From Thermogladius calderae 1633 (GTDB taxonomy: Archaea; Thermoproteota; Thermoprotei_A; Sulfolobales; Desulfurococcaceae): DNA of 64,000 nucleotides. The notes under the pieces were generated by a model. It had not been told where the DNA came from. It saw nothing but the letters and a program-made list of their open reading frames with translations, and searched no databases. Position 1 is the first letter of the stretch. The number at the start of each line of letters is the position of its first letter. The stretch lies in NCBI RefSeq assembly GCF_000264495.1, contig NC_017954.1, forward strand, positions 310,001 through 374,000. Reading direction: 5' to 3'. Shown one piece after another: positions 2,179 to 8,456 of the stretch. A program made the position numbers and the translations under genes.

Positions 2179-2997
2179 GTGACCTGGCAACTACTAGTCA
2201 GAGTTTCCTCGTCGGAGAGAAAAAAGGTGGGTGTGCTAGACGAGAACGCTAACAAAGTAGGCGAGATAGAGCTACCTCCAGTATTCAACGTCCCTGTTAG
2301 AGCAGACCTGGTCAGGAGAGCATTCCTAGCGGCCTTCACAGCGAGACTCCAACCCAAGGGTAGGGATCCTCTAGCAGGCAAGAGAACTACTGCCTACAGC
2401 TGGGGTGTAGGGTACGGTATAGCGAGGGTTCCTAGAAACCCTAACGGGAGAGCGAGGTTTGTTGTTAGCGCTAGAGGTGGGCGCGCAGCATTCCCGCCGA
2501 CCCCTGATAGGGTGCTGAGAGAGGAGATCAACAAGAAGGAGAAGGCCCTCGCTCTCGCAAGCGCTTTGGCAGCGACAAGCGATGTCGGGCTGGTCAGGAG
2601 AAGAGGGCACATATTCGGTGTGAACCAGCTACCAGTCGTTTTAGCCGATAGTGTCGAAGACTCTGTCGACTCGACTCAAAAAGCTAGAGAGTTGTTGGTC
2701 AAGCTTGGTCTATGGAGCGACGTGGAGAGGAGCCGGGACGGAACCGGGATAAGGGCTGGTAAAGGGAAGATGAGGGGCAGAAGGTATGTGGAGCCCAAGA
2801 GCATCCTATTCGTTGTGTCCAGTACTGAGAAGCTGTTTGCTAAGGCTGTAAGGAACTTGCCGGGAGTCGACGTAGCTACGCCCAAAGACCTAAGCGTCCT
2901 TCACCTCGCCCCGGGTGGCGTACCAGGAAGGCTCACCGTCTTCACGAAGAGCGCTCTTGAGGAGATAGGAAGGCGGTTCGAGGTGATATCCCTGTGA
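2179..2997 (+). CDS. rpl4: Large-subunit ribosomal protein uL4
   Basis: 272 aa from a GTG two bases after the uL3 stop. The extended loop that lines the exit tunnel is visible as a Gly/Arg-rich segment ([17 protein letters not shown], then GGRAAFPP) near residues 68-110, and the C-terminal archaeal domain follows ([17 protein letters not shown]-like motif at about 190-210). It binds 23S rRNA domain I. Its stop overlaps the uL23 start, showing translational coupling. Confidence 0.97.
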
Positions 2998-3266
2998 GCG
3001 AGCAGGACAGGTTGGCTAAAGTCATCATCAGGCCCGTCCACAGCGAGAAGGCCTTGACACTCATAGACAAGAACAATACACTAGTATTCATAGTCGACAG
3101 AACCGCTAATAAGACTCTCATAAAAGAGGCCGTTGAAAAGCTCTTCAACGTTAAAGTAGTTAGGGTTAATACGGTGATCACGCCTAGAGGTGAAAAGAAG
3201 GCTTACGTCAAGCTGGCCAGCGAGTACAAGGCTAGCGATGTAGCCACCCAATTAGGCTTACTGTGA
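2994..3266 (+). CDS. rpl23: Large-subunit ribosomal protein uL23
   Basis: 90 aa from a GTG that overlaps the uL4 stop by four bases. It starts with the family segment [19 protein letters not shown] and has the Lys-rich strand [21 protein letters not shown]. uL23 sits at the polypeptide exit site and is the docking point for SRP and the Sec translocon, both partly encoded further along in this window (FtsY, SecY, SecE). Length is normal for archaea. Confidence 0.96.
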
Positions 3267-3276
3267 GGTGGGTTGT

Positions 3277-3993
3277 ATGGGTAAGAGGATTCTCACCCAG
3301 AGAATGGGTAGGGGCTCACCTACATTCAGGAGTCCGGGACACTTACATATCGCCCCTGCTAAGTATCCCCAACTACCCGTAGACAAGACCTTTAAAGGGA
3401 AAGTCGTAGACCTAGTTCACGACCCTGGCAGGTGGGTGCCACTCGCTAGAGTAGTACTAGAGACGGGTGAAGAGTTCTATATTCCAGCAGTAGAGGGGAT
3501 GTACGTAGGACAGGTGATCGAGGTAGGTCCTGAGGCCAAGATCGAGAACGGTAACATCCTACCAGTAGGTAAGATACCCGAGGGTACTCAAGTCGCCAAC
3601 ATAGAGAAAAACCCTGGTGATGGAGGGAGGTATGCTAGGGCTGGCGGGACGTATGCTGTGGTTGTGGGGAGGTCGGGGAACAGGACGCAGATACAGTTGC
3701 CTAGCGGGCGTGTAGTCGAGGTATCTAACGAGGCTAGGGCCACTATAGGCGTGATAGCTGGAGGAGGTAGGGTCGAGAAGCCGCTCTTGAAGGCTGGTGC
3801 TTCCTACTACAAGTGGAAGGCAAAGGCCCACAAGTGGCCTAGAGTACGCGGTCTCGCGATGAACCCCGTCTCGCACCCACATGGAGGCGGTAGGCACGTA
3901 GGTAGGCCTACTACGGTCGCTAGGAACACCCCGCCCGGTAGGAAGGTCGGTCACATAGCGGCGAGAAGGACTGGGAGAAGAAAGGGTAAATAA
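3277..3993 (+). CDS. rpl2: Large-subunit ribosomal protein uL2
   Basis: 238 aa. I chose ATG 3277 rather than the GTG nine bases upstream because the family begins MGKRI and GAGGTG (3265-3270) is then correctly spaced as a ribosome binding site. The C-terminal motif [17 protein letters not shown] is the conserved segment next to the peptidyl-transferase centre, with the essential histidine. Normally uS19 follows directly. Here a short T run (3996-4000) and an unrelated two-gene unit come next. Confidence 0.97.
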
Positions 3994-3995
3994 CC

Positions 3996-4000
3996 TTTTT
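3996..4000 (+). terminator. Short T run after uL2, possible terminator
   Basis: Five T residues follow the uL2 stop within three bases. Archaeal RNA polymerase can terminate at such runs without a hairpin. This would separate the first ribosomal block from the AAA+/VWA pair, but a five-base run is weak evidence. Confidence 0.3.
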
Positions 4001-4054
4001 ACACAATGCTGTTCTGGAAAAAGAGCTCACACCTGCTCATAGGTCTCGGTCGAG

Positions 4055-4990
4055 ATGGCAATTAACGGCGATAAAGCCACTGACCCGATAGTAAGTAAAG
4101 TCCGTGAGATCTACTCCCAGACTATCCGGAAGTACCCGGTGATAAGAAACCCGCCCGATATTATCAGGTATCTTAGGGAGCACTTCAAGCTCATAGTTAA
4201 ACCGTATATAGTGTATATCACAGTGGCGGCGTTCTTAAACAACAGACCTGTCCTGTTCGAGGGGCCGCCTGGTACCGGGAAAACAGAAATAGGAGAGGCG
4301 ATTTTAAGCCTCTGGAGCGGCAAGTCGGCGTTCATCCTGCCCTGTAGCGAAAACTACGACGAGTACCGTGTCATAGGGGACTTTCACCCCGCGATGGCGA
4401 TGAGCAAGGGCTTCAACGAGGAGAGCTTTATACCGAGACCCCTACTAGCAGCCATGATACTTGGCACAGGGGTCTTAATAGACGACATAAGGAGGAGTAG
4501 CGAAGAGTTCCAGAACCTCTTGCTGGATATAATAGATAAGAGGAGGATCATAATCCCGGAGCTGAAGCGGGTGTACTACCAGAAGGATGACGGCTTTCAG
4601 ATCATTCTCACGAGCAACCCCTACGACATAGCACAGGGTGAGCTGAGCGACGCTTTTCTGAGGCGGGTTGTCAGGGTGGAGTTCAAGTACCCGACCCTCG
4701 AGGAGGAGTTCGAGGTGATAAAGTTGAGGCTAGGAGACCTGGTTAATAGACTAGAGCCCAGGCTGATCGAGGAGGCTCTTCAAATAGTCAGGACCCTTCG
4801 CCAGAAAGCCGTGTACAAGCCGGGTATTTCAGATAGCGTCATGTGGCTTACGCTAGCCTCCCTACTCGCAGAGGCGCGGGGGCTAGACAAGGCTGGCAGA
4901 AACGAGTTAGCAGATGCAGGTAGGGCAGTACTGCTCAAGAACGTCGAGGACGAGGCGTTGTTGAATGAGCTACTACCAACACGTGAGTGA
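4055..4990 (+). CDS. MoxR/CoxD-like AAA+ ATPase
   Basis: 311 aa. Walker A is GPPGTGKTE at 70-78, Walker B GVLIDDI at 139-145 (second acidic residue is Asp rather than the usual Glu), sensor 1 TSNP at 186-189, and candidate arginine fingers are in SDAFLRRVVR near 198-207. The RSSEEFQNLL...IIIPEL segment after Walker B resembles CoxD, the ATPase that helps mature the CO dehydrogenase cofactor. MoxR ATPases remodel target proteins with a VWA partner, and that partner overlaps this gene by 26 bases. No CO dehydrogenase or other metalloenzyme gene is nearby; the pair lies inside the ribosomal superoperon, so its client is unknown. Confidence 0.88.
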   Translation: MAINGDKATDPIVSKVREIYSQTIRKYPVIRNPPDIIRYLREHFKLIVKPYIVYITVAAFLNNRPVLFEGPPGTGKTEIGEAILSLWSGKSAFILPCSENYDEYRVIGDFHPAMAMSKGFNEESFIPRPLLAAMILGTGVLIDDIRRSSEEFQNLLLDIIDKRRIIIPELKRVYYQKDDGFQIILTSNPYDIAQGELSDAFLRRVVRVEFKYPTLEEEFEVIKLRLGDLVNRLEPRLIEEALQIVRTLRQKAVYKPGISDSVMWLTLASLLAEARGLDKAGRNELADAGRAVLLKNVEDEALLNELLPTRE

Positions 4991-6806
4991 CGGGTTCAAC
5001 AGCCTAGTAAACAAGGTCCTCGACGAACTATACGAGAAGGTGAAGAGTGCGGAGAGAATCCCAACGGGACAGCTCGAGGACTTAGCGAGGATAAGGTTGA
5101 CGCTCGAGCTCTTAAACTACGAGAAGGGCGCGGTAAAGAGCGAGGTAATAGAGGAGTTCTACAAGTCCAACCTTGCGGAGCAAGAGCTAGCAGGCTATGG
5201 GGGCTGGCTCTATATACCGGGTAAAGAGAGTATTCACAGAGTCCTGTCCAACAAGGGTAGGAGGCTGAGGCTAGGCGATGTCATCAGGGAGGGCACAGCA
5301 GAGGAGGTTCTTAACTACGTGTGGTTCAGGGCGAACAAAGTCCTTTACAGAGACAAGAGCGGTAAGCTCGTCATGGACAGGAATGGAGCCTATAGGGCCT
5401 TTGCGGAGGAGAGACCAATAACGGCTAGGGACGTACTTAAGTACCTGAAAGAAGTTCCAAGTAGGTACTGGGCCAGTGTGATAACGAGCGACCTACTCAC
5501 GTCGTTGGACTATGACGAGATCGAAGAGCTTGTAAGATATTATTACGGTCACAATAAGACTGTGGACAAGAGAGTCCTAGACTTTGTGTTAACAAAAGCT
5601 AGTGGGACCGGTGGTAAGGACGATAAGCTAGGCGTTGTACTGCGTCTGTCAAAAAAGCTGGGTAAGCAGGCGTCTAACAAGATGAGGACGCTGGTAGACG
5701 AGCTAGTGTCTACAACCGACTTGAAAGACATAGAGAAACAACCCCTCGCAGAGAGGTGGAGCATCGTGTCTAGCCTCTACAGGGATAGCAGGCTCAGGAG
5801 CAGAATGTCTACGCTCTCACCACTATCTCTAGCCGGTTTGACGAGCGTAGAGAAACTAGACGACATCACAAGAAACAAGGCCCTGCTCGGCAAGGCTCTT
5901 AGACACTACTTAAACTACGTAGTGACCAGTGACCAGGCCGAGAGACAAGCCGCCTTGTACTACGCAGGAAAAATAGAGCCCTCTGCCCTTGAGCCACAAT
6001 ACAGAGCGATTCTAGAGAGGATACTGAGCGACGACCAGAGGCTTCTACTTCACCTGGTCTCGAAACTCTATCCAGACGACACCTTGGAGCTGATTTCAAT
6101 GAAATTGTCGGACGTTTCCTCAACGAGAGGCCTCGACTACGCTGTACTAGAAAGGGCAATAAAACTGGGTTGCCGGGTCTTCGAGAGGGCGCGGCGCGGT
6201 TTACCGATCGGGGGCAGAAAAGTCAGGTCCGCCAAGGGGAGGCTCGATGTCAGGTCAACAGTATTCAACTACACTAGGTTTAACTACAAAATGGTATTCG
6301 AGGATTCGCCTAGGAAGAAGAGCATTACGGCCGTTGTAGACGTCAGTGGTAGTATGCTTAGGTACAGTATGTGGACGCTGGTAGCGCTGGCTAGCGTAAT
6401 AGAGCTTGTAGACAAGATAGTCTTGTTCTGGGATAGAACCGAGGTCGTGAAACCTCCTGTGAAGAAGACAAGGCCCCTCATCTACAGGTTCCTTGAGAGA
6501 GTCTACACGCAGAGGTTCAAGGGGTATACGAATATCAGCCAGGCTATTAGAGTGGCGGTAAGTAGACACCCCGGGAGGGTGGTAGTTCTCGTGTCCGATC
6601 TTCAGCAGACCGTAAGAGACGTAGATCCCTGGCTGGAAGTGCGGAACCTGGTCGATAGAGGCATTAGAGTAGTCGTGGTCGCGCCGCCGAGGCACAATAG
6701 AGATGTCTTGAGGAGGCTCGAGAGTATAGGTTGCGAGACGGTAATCGTTAAAAATCCCAGCAAGATACCCATTTACCTTAAAAAGAGGTTAAACATTAAA
6801 ATCTAG
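4965..6806 (+). CDS. CoxE-like VWA-domain protein, partner of the AAA+ ATPase
   Basis: 613 aa, ATG start overlapping the ATPase gene by 26 bases. Residues 1-440 are a charged, mostly helical region without a domain I recognise. The C-terminal third is a von Willebrand A domain with an intact metal site: DVSGSM at 459-464, Thr at about 522 (GYTNI) and Asp at about 545 (VSDLQQ). A basic patch ([21 protein letters not shown]) precedes it, as in CoxE. MoxR/VWA pairs act as metal-dependent chaperones. The location between uL2 and uS19 hints at a role in ribosome or translation-factor assembly, which is inference only. Confidence 0.88.
6795..6802 (+). promoter_or_regulatory. Likely TATA box restarting the ribosomal operon before uS19
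   Basis: ATTAAAAT lies at the very end of the VWA gene, about 46-53 bases before the uS19 start. It would allow uS19 and the genes after it to be transcribed independently of the inserted AAA+/VWA pair. Confidence 0.5.
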
Positions 6807-6847: not shown

Positions 6848-7285
6848 GTGTCTTTGGACTTGAAGGAGATGCCGCCCGAGTGGAAGAAGTTCAGGTACAG
6901 GGGGAAGACCCTCGAGGAGCTACTGTCAATGCCGATGGACGAGCTGATCGAGCTGTTGCCAGCCAGGGCTAGGAGGAGCCTGAAGAGAGGGTTCACGAAG
7001 GCCCAGATCAGATTGCTCGCGAAGATAAGGAAGATCAGACAGAACCCCGATCTCGCGAAGAAAGCCGTTATAAAAACCCACGTGAGGGACATGGTCGTGT
7101 TACCCGAGATGGTGGGATTGACGATAGCCGTTTACAACGGAAAAGAGTTCGTCCCAGTGAAGGTGACCCCCGAGATGATAGGACACTACCTTGGCGAGTT
7201 CAGCCCGACGACCAAGAAGGTCGTCCACGGAGAGCCGGGTCTTAAGGCGACCCGGAGCAGTATGTTCGTAGCCCTGAAGACGTAG
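6848..7285 (+). CDS. rps19: Small-subunit ribosomal protein uS19
   Basis: 145 aa, GTG start. It has the archaeal N-terminal extension ([21 protein letters not shown]) and the core motifs [21 protein letters not shown] and LGEFSPTT. It binds the 30S head next to uS13. In other archaea it directly follows uL2; here it is displaced by about 2.8 kb and has its own upstream TATA-like box. uL22 follows after nine bases. Confidence 0.96.
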
Positions 7286-7294
7286 GGTGGTCCT

Positions 7295-7768
7295 ATGCCG
7301 ACTTGGCACTACTCATTACAGTTGAGAGACGAGTCGAAAATCGCAAAGGCTGTTAGGTACGATATACCAGTCTCTATAAAGTACATGAGAGAAGTTGTTT
7401 CAGTCCTCAGAGGGATGAAACTAAAGGACGCCAAGACACTTCTGGAAAACGTCGTCAAACTAAAAGAGCCGATCCCGTTCAGGAGGTACCACGGCAAAGT
7501 CAGCCATAAGAGAGGGCTGGCCGACAAGTACGGTTGGCCTGCCGGCAGGTACCCGGTTAAGGCGGCGAAGTTCCTCCTCGAACTCCTCGAGAACGTGGAG
7601 GCAAATGCCGAAAACAAGGGGTTAGACAAGGACAAGCTGGTAATAATACACATAGCAGCACACAAAGGGATCACGCTTAAGAGGTACATGCCCAGGGCTT
7701 TTGGTAGGGCAACTCCCAAGTTCCGTAGAACAACTAATGTGGAGGTCATAGTTAGAGAGGCGAGCTGA
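7295..7768 (+). CDS. rpl22: Large-subunit ribosomal protein uL22
   Basis: 157 aa, ATG start preceded by GGTGG. Family features include the ISIKYMREVVSVLRG-like helix near residue 25 and the long hairpin with HKGITLKRYMPRAFGRAT that lines the exit tunnel (near 123-140). An archaeal insertion (RYHGKVSHKRGLADKYGWPA) is present at about 65-85. Next gene uS3 begins one base after its stop. Confidence 0.96.
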   Translation: MPTWHYSLQLRDESKIAKAVRYDIPVSIKYMREVVSVLRGMKLKDAKTLLENVVKLKEPIPFRRYHGKVSHKRGLADKYGWPAGRYPVKAAKFLLELLENVEANAENKGLDKDKLVIIHIAAHKGITLKRYMPRAFGRATPKFRRTTNVEVIVREAS

Positions 7769-7769
7769 C

Positions 7770-8456
7770 ATGGTGGGCTCGAGGGTAAAACAGTACTTCA
7801 TAAACCTTGGGCTGAAGAAGACGATGATCGACCAGTTCCTAGCGAGCTACTTCGTTGACGCGGGCTACGCAGGAGTAGAGCTCTACAAGACCCCCACAGG
7901 GCACAGAGTTGTGATATACGCTGAGTACCCTGGGAGGCTGATCGGTAGGGGAGGCTCGGTGATCAGGAAGCTCACAGCGATCTTCCAGACGAGGTTCGGG
8001 CTGGAGAACGTAAACATCACGGTTTCCCCAGTGACGGACGCAGACCTGAACGCCAGAGTCGTCGCGTTCCGCATAGTTAGAGCCCTCGAGAAAGAGATAC
8101 CTTACAGAAGAGTTATGATGGCCATGCTAAAGAGGATTATGGACGCGGGAGCGCTCGGGGCCGAGATCGTGATCAGCGGTAAACTCAGAGGCGAGAGAGC
8201 AACATACGAGAAGATGAGAACCGGGAAAATCTACAAGGCGGGGGACCTAGTCGACTACATAGTGGACAGGGCTGTTGCCAAGACTCTACTAAAGCCTGGT
8301 ATATTCGGTGTCGAGGTAATCATAGTCAAACCGTCTATCCCGCTACCGGACCAGGTCGAGCTGAAACAGCTGAAACCCGAGGAGTTGCAAGAACTGGCGC
8401 AGCCCCAGGTCAAAGGGGAGGCACCAGTAGGGGGTGGTAGTAGTGAAGGCCAGTGA
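7770..8456 (+). CDS. rps3: Small-subunit ribosomal protein uS3
   Basis: 228 aa. The N-terminal KH domain has the RNA-binding loop IGRGG at 58-62, and the C-terminal uS3 domain includes GAEIVISGKLRGERA near 130-144. The protein forms part of the mRNA entry channel with helicase activity. The C-terminus is Pro/Gly-rich and its last codons overlap the uL29 start region. Confidence 0.97.
   Translation: MVGSRVKQYFINLGLKKTMIDQFLASYFVDAGYAGVELYKTPTGHRVVIYAEYPGRLIGRGGSVIRKLTAIFQTRFGLENVNITVSPVTDADLNARVVAFRIVRALEKEIPYRRVMMAMLKRIMDAGALGAEIVISGKLRGERATYEKMRTGKIYKAGDLVDYIVDRAVAKTLLKPGIFGVEVIIVKPSIPLPDQVELKQLKPEELQELAQPQVKGEAPVGGGSSEGQ

Follow-up and report, generated by a model that had tools for sequence, protein, structure and literature searches.

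A MoxR-type ATPase and VWA protein pair linked to the uS19 gene in Thermogladius calderae and related archaea, a candidate remodeller of the translation machinery

Introduction

Among the described systems closest to the gene pair reported here are NorQ and NorD, in which the VWA domain sits in the pore of a MoxR hexamer, and the MIDAS site has been proposed to grip the target (PMC9976466, PMC13036017). The ATPase CoxD has been assigned to the MoxR subfamily APE2220 (PMC3893208), while RavA and ViaA are tied to respiratory complexes in published work (PMC3893208, PMC10585395). A crenarchaeal virus, ATV, specifies a comparable couple (p618/p892), the MoxR ATPase of which binds, and is stimulated by, the VWA protein (PMC4124505).

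This study focused on a pair of this general type that is encoded within a ribosomal protein gene cluster of Thermogladius calderae 1633, the genome of which is a single contig of 1,356,318 bases. The window analysed was a stretch of 64,000 nucleotides (NC_017954.1, positions 310,001 to 374,000), and all coordinates without a locus label refer to it; families, genomes and loci used for comparison carry our own labels. In the literature searched, chiefly freely accessible papers, no prior description of a linkage between an AAA-VWA pair and uS19 was found.

Results

The order of genes in the window was uL3-uL4-uL23-uL2-AAA-VWA-uS19-uL22-uS3. According to the table of open reading frames, the plus-strand cluster comprised uL3 (986-2176), uL4 (2179-2997) and uL23 (2994-3266) on one side, and uL22 (7295-7768) and uS3 (7770-8456) on the other, while the immediate neighbours of the pair were uL2 upstream (3268-3993, plus strand) and uS19 downstream (6848-7285, plus strand), the latter being the most conserved link. 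The ribosomal gene names are our own and those of the initial annotation, and a homologous block in the same order was seen in many relatives. The ATPase, P0001 (4055-4990, plus strand, 311 aa), matched Pfam AAA_5 with 70 bits against a cut-off of 22, and the VWA protein, P0002 (4965-6806, plus strand, 613 aa), matched VWA_CoxE with 58.4 bits against a cut-off of 26.4, so that the initial annotation of a MoxR-type ATPase and VWA pair between uL2 and uS19 was borne out, and the pair is intact. No NCBIfam family scored above cut-off for either protein. The two ORFs overlap by 26 bases (4965-4990, plus strand), which is likely to reflect translational coupling, and in all 25 loci examined they either overlapped or were at most 11 bases apart. 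The GC content of the pair (0.51-0.52) was the same as that of the remainder of the window, and thus gave no sign of recent import. Searches with PADLOC and PHROG returned only generic ATPase matches, and a role in anti-phage defence or an origin from phage was rejected. No structured RNA was found near the pair, the only ones detected being five tRNAs, all beyond 24 kb. The same genome has a second MoxR/VWA gene neighbourhood (G000:C1:689348-691536; L001, L203).

P0001 has a MoxR-class core of the AAA_5/AAA_3 type, with Walker A, Walker B and sensor 1 present. The Walker A motif EGPPGTGKTE (residues 69-78; 4259-4288, plus strand) was identical in 31 of 31 orthologues. In the Walker B motif GVLIDD (residues 139-144; 4469-4486, plus strand) the catalytic glutamate is replaced by aspartate; this position (residue 144, 4484-4486) was Glu in 28 and Asp in 3 of the 31 orthologues, the carriers of Asp being Thermogladius (the window copy and L069) and L077, and the substitution may slow ATP hydrolysis. 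Identity to orthologues in other families was 53-60%, and at the level of sequence the conservation of the ATPase resembles that of a housekeeping protein. The structural model (pLDDT 80) had its best PDB matches to NorQ, the closest of all, and CbbQ (E 1e-11), at about 20% identity when aligned by structure, and the region of the helix-2 insert hairpin (residues 101-124) was modelled with pLDDT <50.

P0002 consists of a basic, helical N-terminal region followed by a C-terminal VWA domain. The complete MIDAS signature (DxSxS...T...D) was kept in 30 of 30 VWA members: D459, S461 and S463 of the motif DVSGS (residues 459-463; 6339-6353, plus strand) were invariant, as were threonine T522 (6528-6530, plus strand) and aspartate D545 (6597-6599, plus strand). 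Identity to VWA members of other families was 18-23%, and a profile match to MoxR-linked CoxE-type partners extended over about 240 columns (E 3e-17). Members ranged from 400 to 705 aa in length; in four f9 loci (L088, L089, L090, L092) the protein was only 403-451 aa long, lacking about 200 N-terminal residues while keeping the MIDAS. The pI of P0002 is 9.7 (family range 9.4-10.7), and in 30 of 30 members the net charge was +3 to +8 per 100 aa, while among neighbouring ORFs it had a median of 0.6 and reached 3.9 at the 95th percentile, and their pI reached 9.5 at the 90th percentile; for CoxE-type partners of actinobacterial MoxR it was mostly negative or close to zero. Such a charge would be apt for an adaptor whose partner is ribosomal or rich in RNA, but as basic proteins are common in these organisms it is treated as no more than supportive. 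The single-chain model of P0002 (pLDDT 68) did not resolve a VWA finger for the ATPase pore.

In an order-wide search of 147 genomes the VWA protein was matched in 57 and a full ATPase orthologue in about 59, the latter at E below 1e-100 and separated by a wide gap from the remaining MoxR proteins (E >1e-21). A class-wide census found orthologues of the ATPase in 98 of 229 genomes. Its next relatives across the phylum appeared at E ~1e-37, and the one examined, from another lineage of the phylum, is a 608-aa AAA-VWA fusion (L184:8733-10559).

The positions of uS19 and the ATPase were compared in 80 pair-bearing genomes. AAA, a VWA-sized gap and uS19 lay on one strand in 52 of them and the genes were within 10 kb of each other in 13 more; the remainder comprised 3 genomes in which they were far apart on one contig, 11 in which they were on different contigs (mostly fragmented assemblies), and 1 without uS19. 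The survey of uL2-uS19 neighbourhoods proposed with the initial annotation thus found the pair linked in relatives and not a one-off insertion, the ATPase being at most 10 kb from uS19 in 65 of the 68 genomes that had both on one contig, whereas random placement in genomes of 1.3-2.2 Mb would put roughly 1-2% within that distance. Gene maps showed the VWA gene filling the gap between AAA and uS19 in every mapped locus, and the AAA-VWA-uS19 arrangement occurred both inside and outside the order. Families f1, f6, f9 and f4 were recovered as supported clades in the ATPase tree, and because the tree groups by family with strong support, inheritance has been mainly vertical.

The pair was missing from whole families (the Sulfolobaceae-type f11, and f2, f3, f5 and f7) and, within f1, the family of the window, from genus g4, all census genomes of which were without the ATPase. 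At two g4 loci (L078, L079) the pair was absent and uL2 and uS19 were 35-54 bases apart; judging from these sequences, g4 has lost the pair cleanly. Such absences indicate that the pair is not essential to archaeal ribosomes generally. The earlier view that the S10-type block is normally unbroken held for relatives like L078, L079 and L107 but not for L103, L105 and L106, where the junction was broken or the genes lay apart without the pair. Since uL2 and uS19 are separated in this way in several families, their junction is evidently a frequent breakpoint in the order.

The surroundings of the pair differed between families. The order uL2-AAA-VWA-uS19 was seen in f1 and most of f9. In f6 (Acidilobaceae, including Aeropyrum), f10 and f13, uL2 had gone from the upstream side and AAA-VWA still stood immediately before uS19, with an ileS-type gene upstream and close to the pair, while the scrambled ribosomal cluster of f8 and f4 still had the pair near uS19. 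The link to uS19 was lost in two f6-type genomes (G046 and G062, which we take to be Acidilobus-like) and in G054 (presumably Caldisphaera-like); in all three, ileS and a gene for a Cas4-like nuclease lay upstream of the pair (identified in L097, and elsewhere as ORFs of the same size), and in the Acidilobus-like genomes argS was 35 bases downstream of VWA. The Cas4-like PD-(D/E)XK nuclease is a standalone gene directly upstream of AAA in Acidilobaceae-type loci (L097:9504-10067, L098:6347-7018, L185:10051-10761, L095:6524-7183), and in L097 and L185 it sits between ileS and AAA. One f8 genome has a TtuA/NcsA-like tRNA thiolation PP-loop gene about 10 bases past VWA (L087:7287-8213).

Small signals around the pair were of limited help. 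The 61-base gap between uL2 and AAA (3994-4054, plus strand) contains a short T run, and the TATA-like string ATTAAAAT (6795-6802, plus strand) falls within the final codons of VWA, 46-53 bases ahead of uS19. Both were present as first described, but neither was convincing alone, the T run being 5 T directly past the uL2 stop (3996-4000) and 4 T in the congener L069, and the box overlapping coding sequence; the significance of ATTAAAAT as a signal is doubtful. When TATA elements were scored across genomes, those before uS19 fell mostly within VWA codons, and those found before AAA in some genera rarely beat shuffled sequence. A scan for bacterial promoters and terminators is uninformative for archaea, and codon usage had no power as a proxy for expression, ribosomal and other genes overlapping completely. 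Families f8 and f4 often carried the pair on the strand opposite to uS19, and being co-transcribed with uS19 can therefore not be required in general.

Discussion

One obvious expectation from the domain content was not borne out, namely that the pair would act as CoxD and CoxE do and mature a molybdo-enzyme of the CoxL/xanthine dehydrogenase family whose gene lies in another part of the genome. In favour of such a role are the VWA_CoxE domain of P0002 and the three MoCoBD_1 (CoxL-family) genes of the genome, and the MoxR subfamily of CoxD, APE2220, apparently takes its name from an Aeropyrum gene. All three of those genes are situated away from the pair, in agreement with the early remark that no metalloenzyme was nearby, and in 67 genomes MoCoBD_1 was no commoner with the pair (20 of 40) than without it (16 of 27). 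Moreover, separate CoxD-like paralogues, 30-35% identical to P0001, were found about 2-3 kb from MoCoBD_1 in five genomes, two of them Aeropyrum (G027, G075, G050, G015, G026), and that of A. pernix is probably APE2220 itself, as inferred from its position. Co-occurrence and the distinct paralogues beside MoCoBD_1 together rule out a CoxDE role for practical purposes, leaving it the least probable of the readings considered, and the label 'CoxD/CoxE-like' had to be given up in its functional sense, as the pair does not track MoCoBD_1 and the true CoxD-like paralogues sit elsewhere.

The motifs of both proteins are intact, their ORFs are coupled, the pair is linked to uS19 and translation genes and vertically inherited, the adaptor is basic, and there is no tie to a molybdo-enzyme. 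The likeliest reading remains the one first suggested, a translation-linked client, and we give about an even chance to a dedicated AAA+/VWA remodeller that resembles NorQ/NorD or, by analogy, Midasin in its working and acts on a client in the translation machinery. The hexamer, the docking mode (after NorQ/NorD) and the class of client are inferred. The MoxR-type ATPase would assemble into a hexameric ring and the VWA protein would serve as adaptor, its VWA domain docking in the ring pore, with the MIDAS metal site gripping an acidic spot on the client and the basic N-terminal region holding a partner that is acidic, through a high content of nucleic acid or in some other way. Hydrolysis of ATP would then pull or twist the client, for which a ribosomal protein, a ribosomal subunit still being assembled and an assembly factor bound to that subunit are the candidates. 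As proximity can outlast function, the link to translation rests on three things: its persistence through rearrangement, the presence of further translation genes beside the pair, and the adaptor's charge.

The main competitor to a translation-dedicated remodeller is that the pair works as a general chaperone linked to growth and has a client outside translation; the cluster would provide it with strong growth-linked expression, or it would have stayed there because gene order changes slowly. MoxR/VWA pairs with other functions are known, and non-ribosomal genes do occur in ribosomal clusters. The opposite orientation of the pair and uS19 in f8 and f4 fits this explanation, since proximity may there be inherited order rather than co-expression, and the TATA-like elements before AAA in some genera, though mostly not beyond shuffles, hint at a promoter of its own. 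We regard it as possible but on the unlikely side, because when the cluster breaks the pair follows uS19 and not uL2, and it keeps ileS and argS as neighbours where the link to uS19 is gone; the VWA protein is also unusually basic. The recurrence of an ileS-type gene upstream in f6, f10 and f13, and of an ORF of similar size in one f8 locus, raises the idea that an aminoacyl-tRNA synthetase, particularly IleRS, is the client. This is highly improbable, given that the conserved cluster in the window and in the mapped f1 members has no ileS and that ileS may be just an inherited neighbour; synthetases are not known to require a machine of this kind.

RNA quality control of the Ro60 type, in which the VWA protein would use its basic helical N-terminus to bind RNA, misfolded rRNA included, and the ATPase would act as remodeller, derives some appeal from the basic charge, from a weak profile match to TROVE proteins, and from the top seven PDB matches of the VWA model, all of them Ro60 (E 6e-6) and some in complex with misfolded pre-5S rRNA. 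The superpositions were weak, however (TM-scores 0.25-0.30, rmsd 14-18 A, for a model of low confidence at pLDDT 68), no TROVE domain appeared in a Pfam scan at E values up to 10, and the profile-profile match to TROVE was confined to the VWA end (E 2e-5, versus 3e-17 for CoxE-type partners). Kinship with Ro60 was accordingly cut back to a likeness of architecture, and this role is considered very unlikely. A bolder form of the remodeller reading, to which we attach a rather low probability, would make the pair a two-gene archaeal functional counterpart of Midasin, in which a MoxR ring and a detachable basic MIDAS adaptor strip an assembly factor from nascent ribosomal particles, or remodel these, having been encoded in the ribosomal protein cluster and afterwards given up by several lineages.

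Few energy-driven remodellers are known from archaeal ribosome assembly, and a conserved pair of AAA+ and VWA genes linked to uS19 is a specific and testable candidate for one. Its long-kept adjacency to ribosomal genes in many heat-loving archaea suggests a role in building or repairing the protein-making machinery. If so, the design of eukaryotic Midasin, an AAA ring combined with a MIDAS domain, would also have been applied to translation in archaea.

How the pair relates to known systems can be summarised from their architecture, context and charge. CoxD/CoxE-type pairs of actinobacteria share the VWA_CoxE family, and their ATPases are mostly 25-36% identical to that of the pair over the best segment, but their CoxE-type partners are mostly 250-360 aa long and acidic to near neutral, whereas the VWA protein of the pair is basic and, at 400-705 aa, longer, and the pair shows no link to a molybdo-enzyme. 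RavA/ViaA likewise combines a MoxR ATPase with a VWA partner and is chaperone-like; no RavA or ViaA entry was among the Pfam and NCBIfam matches of P0001 and P0002. The MoxR/VWA couple of ATV, which includes a virion protein and has a proposed role in tail development, is set apart by this description. Ro60/TROVE proteins resemble the VWA protein in having a helical N-terminal part, a C-terminal VWA domain and an RNA context. Midasin (Rea1/Mdn1) shares with the pair an AAA ring, a MIDAS VWA domain and, in ribosome biogenesis, its context, but carries six AAA domains and the VWA domain on one chain, while the pair is two ORFs with a single AAA domain. Kinship with Midasin was rejected, as its top score in the PDB search with the ATPase sums six AAA domains and single domains did no better than CbbQ/NorQ (best single domain 29.8 bits, CbbQ 34.1 bits). 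In NorQ/NorD and CbbQ/CbbO, as in the pair, the MoxR ATPase and its larger partner are encoded by two genes that lie side by side, and the partner has a VWA domain of the MIDAS type at its C-terminal end. The pair differs from both in that its VWA protein is strongly basic and its conserved neighbourhood holds, in place of a nitric-oxide reductase or Rubisco gene, the genes of the ribosome.
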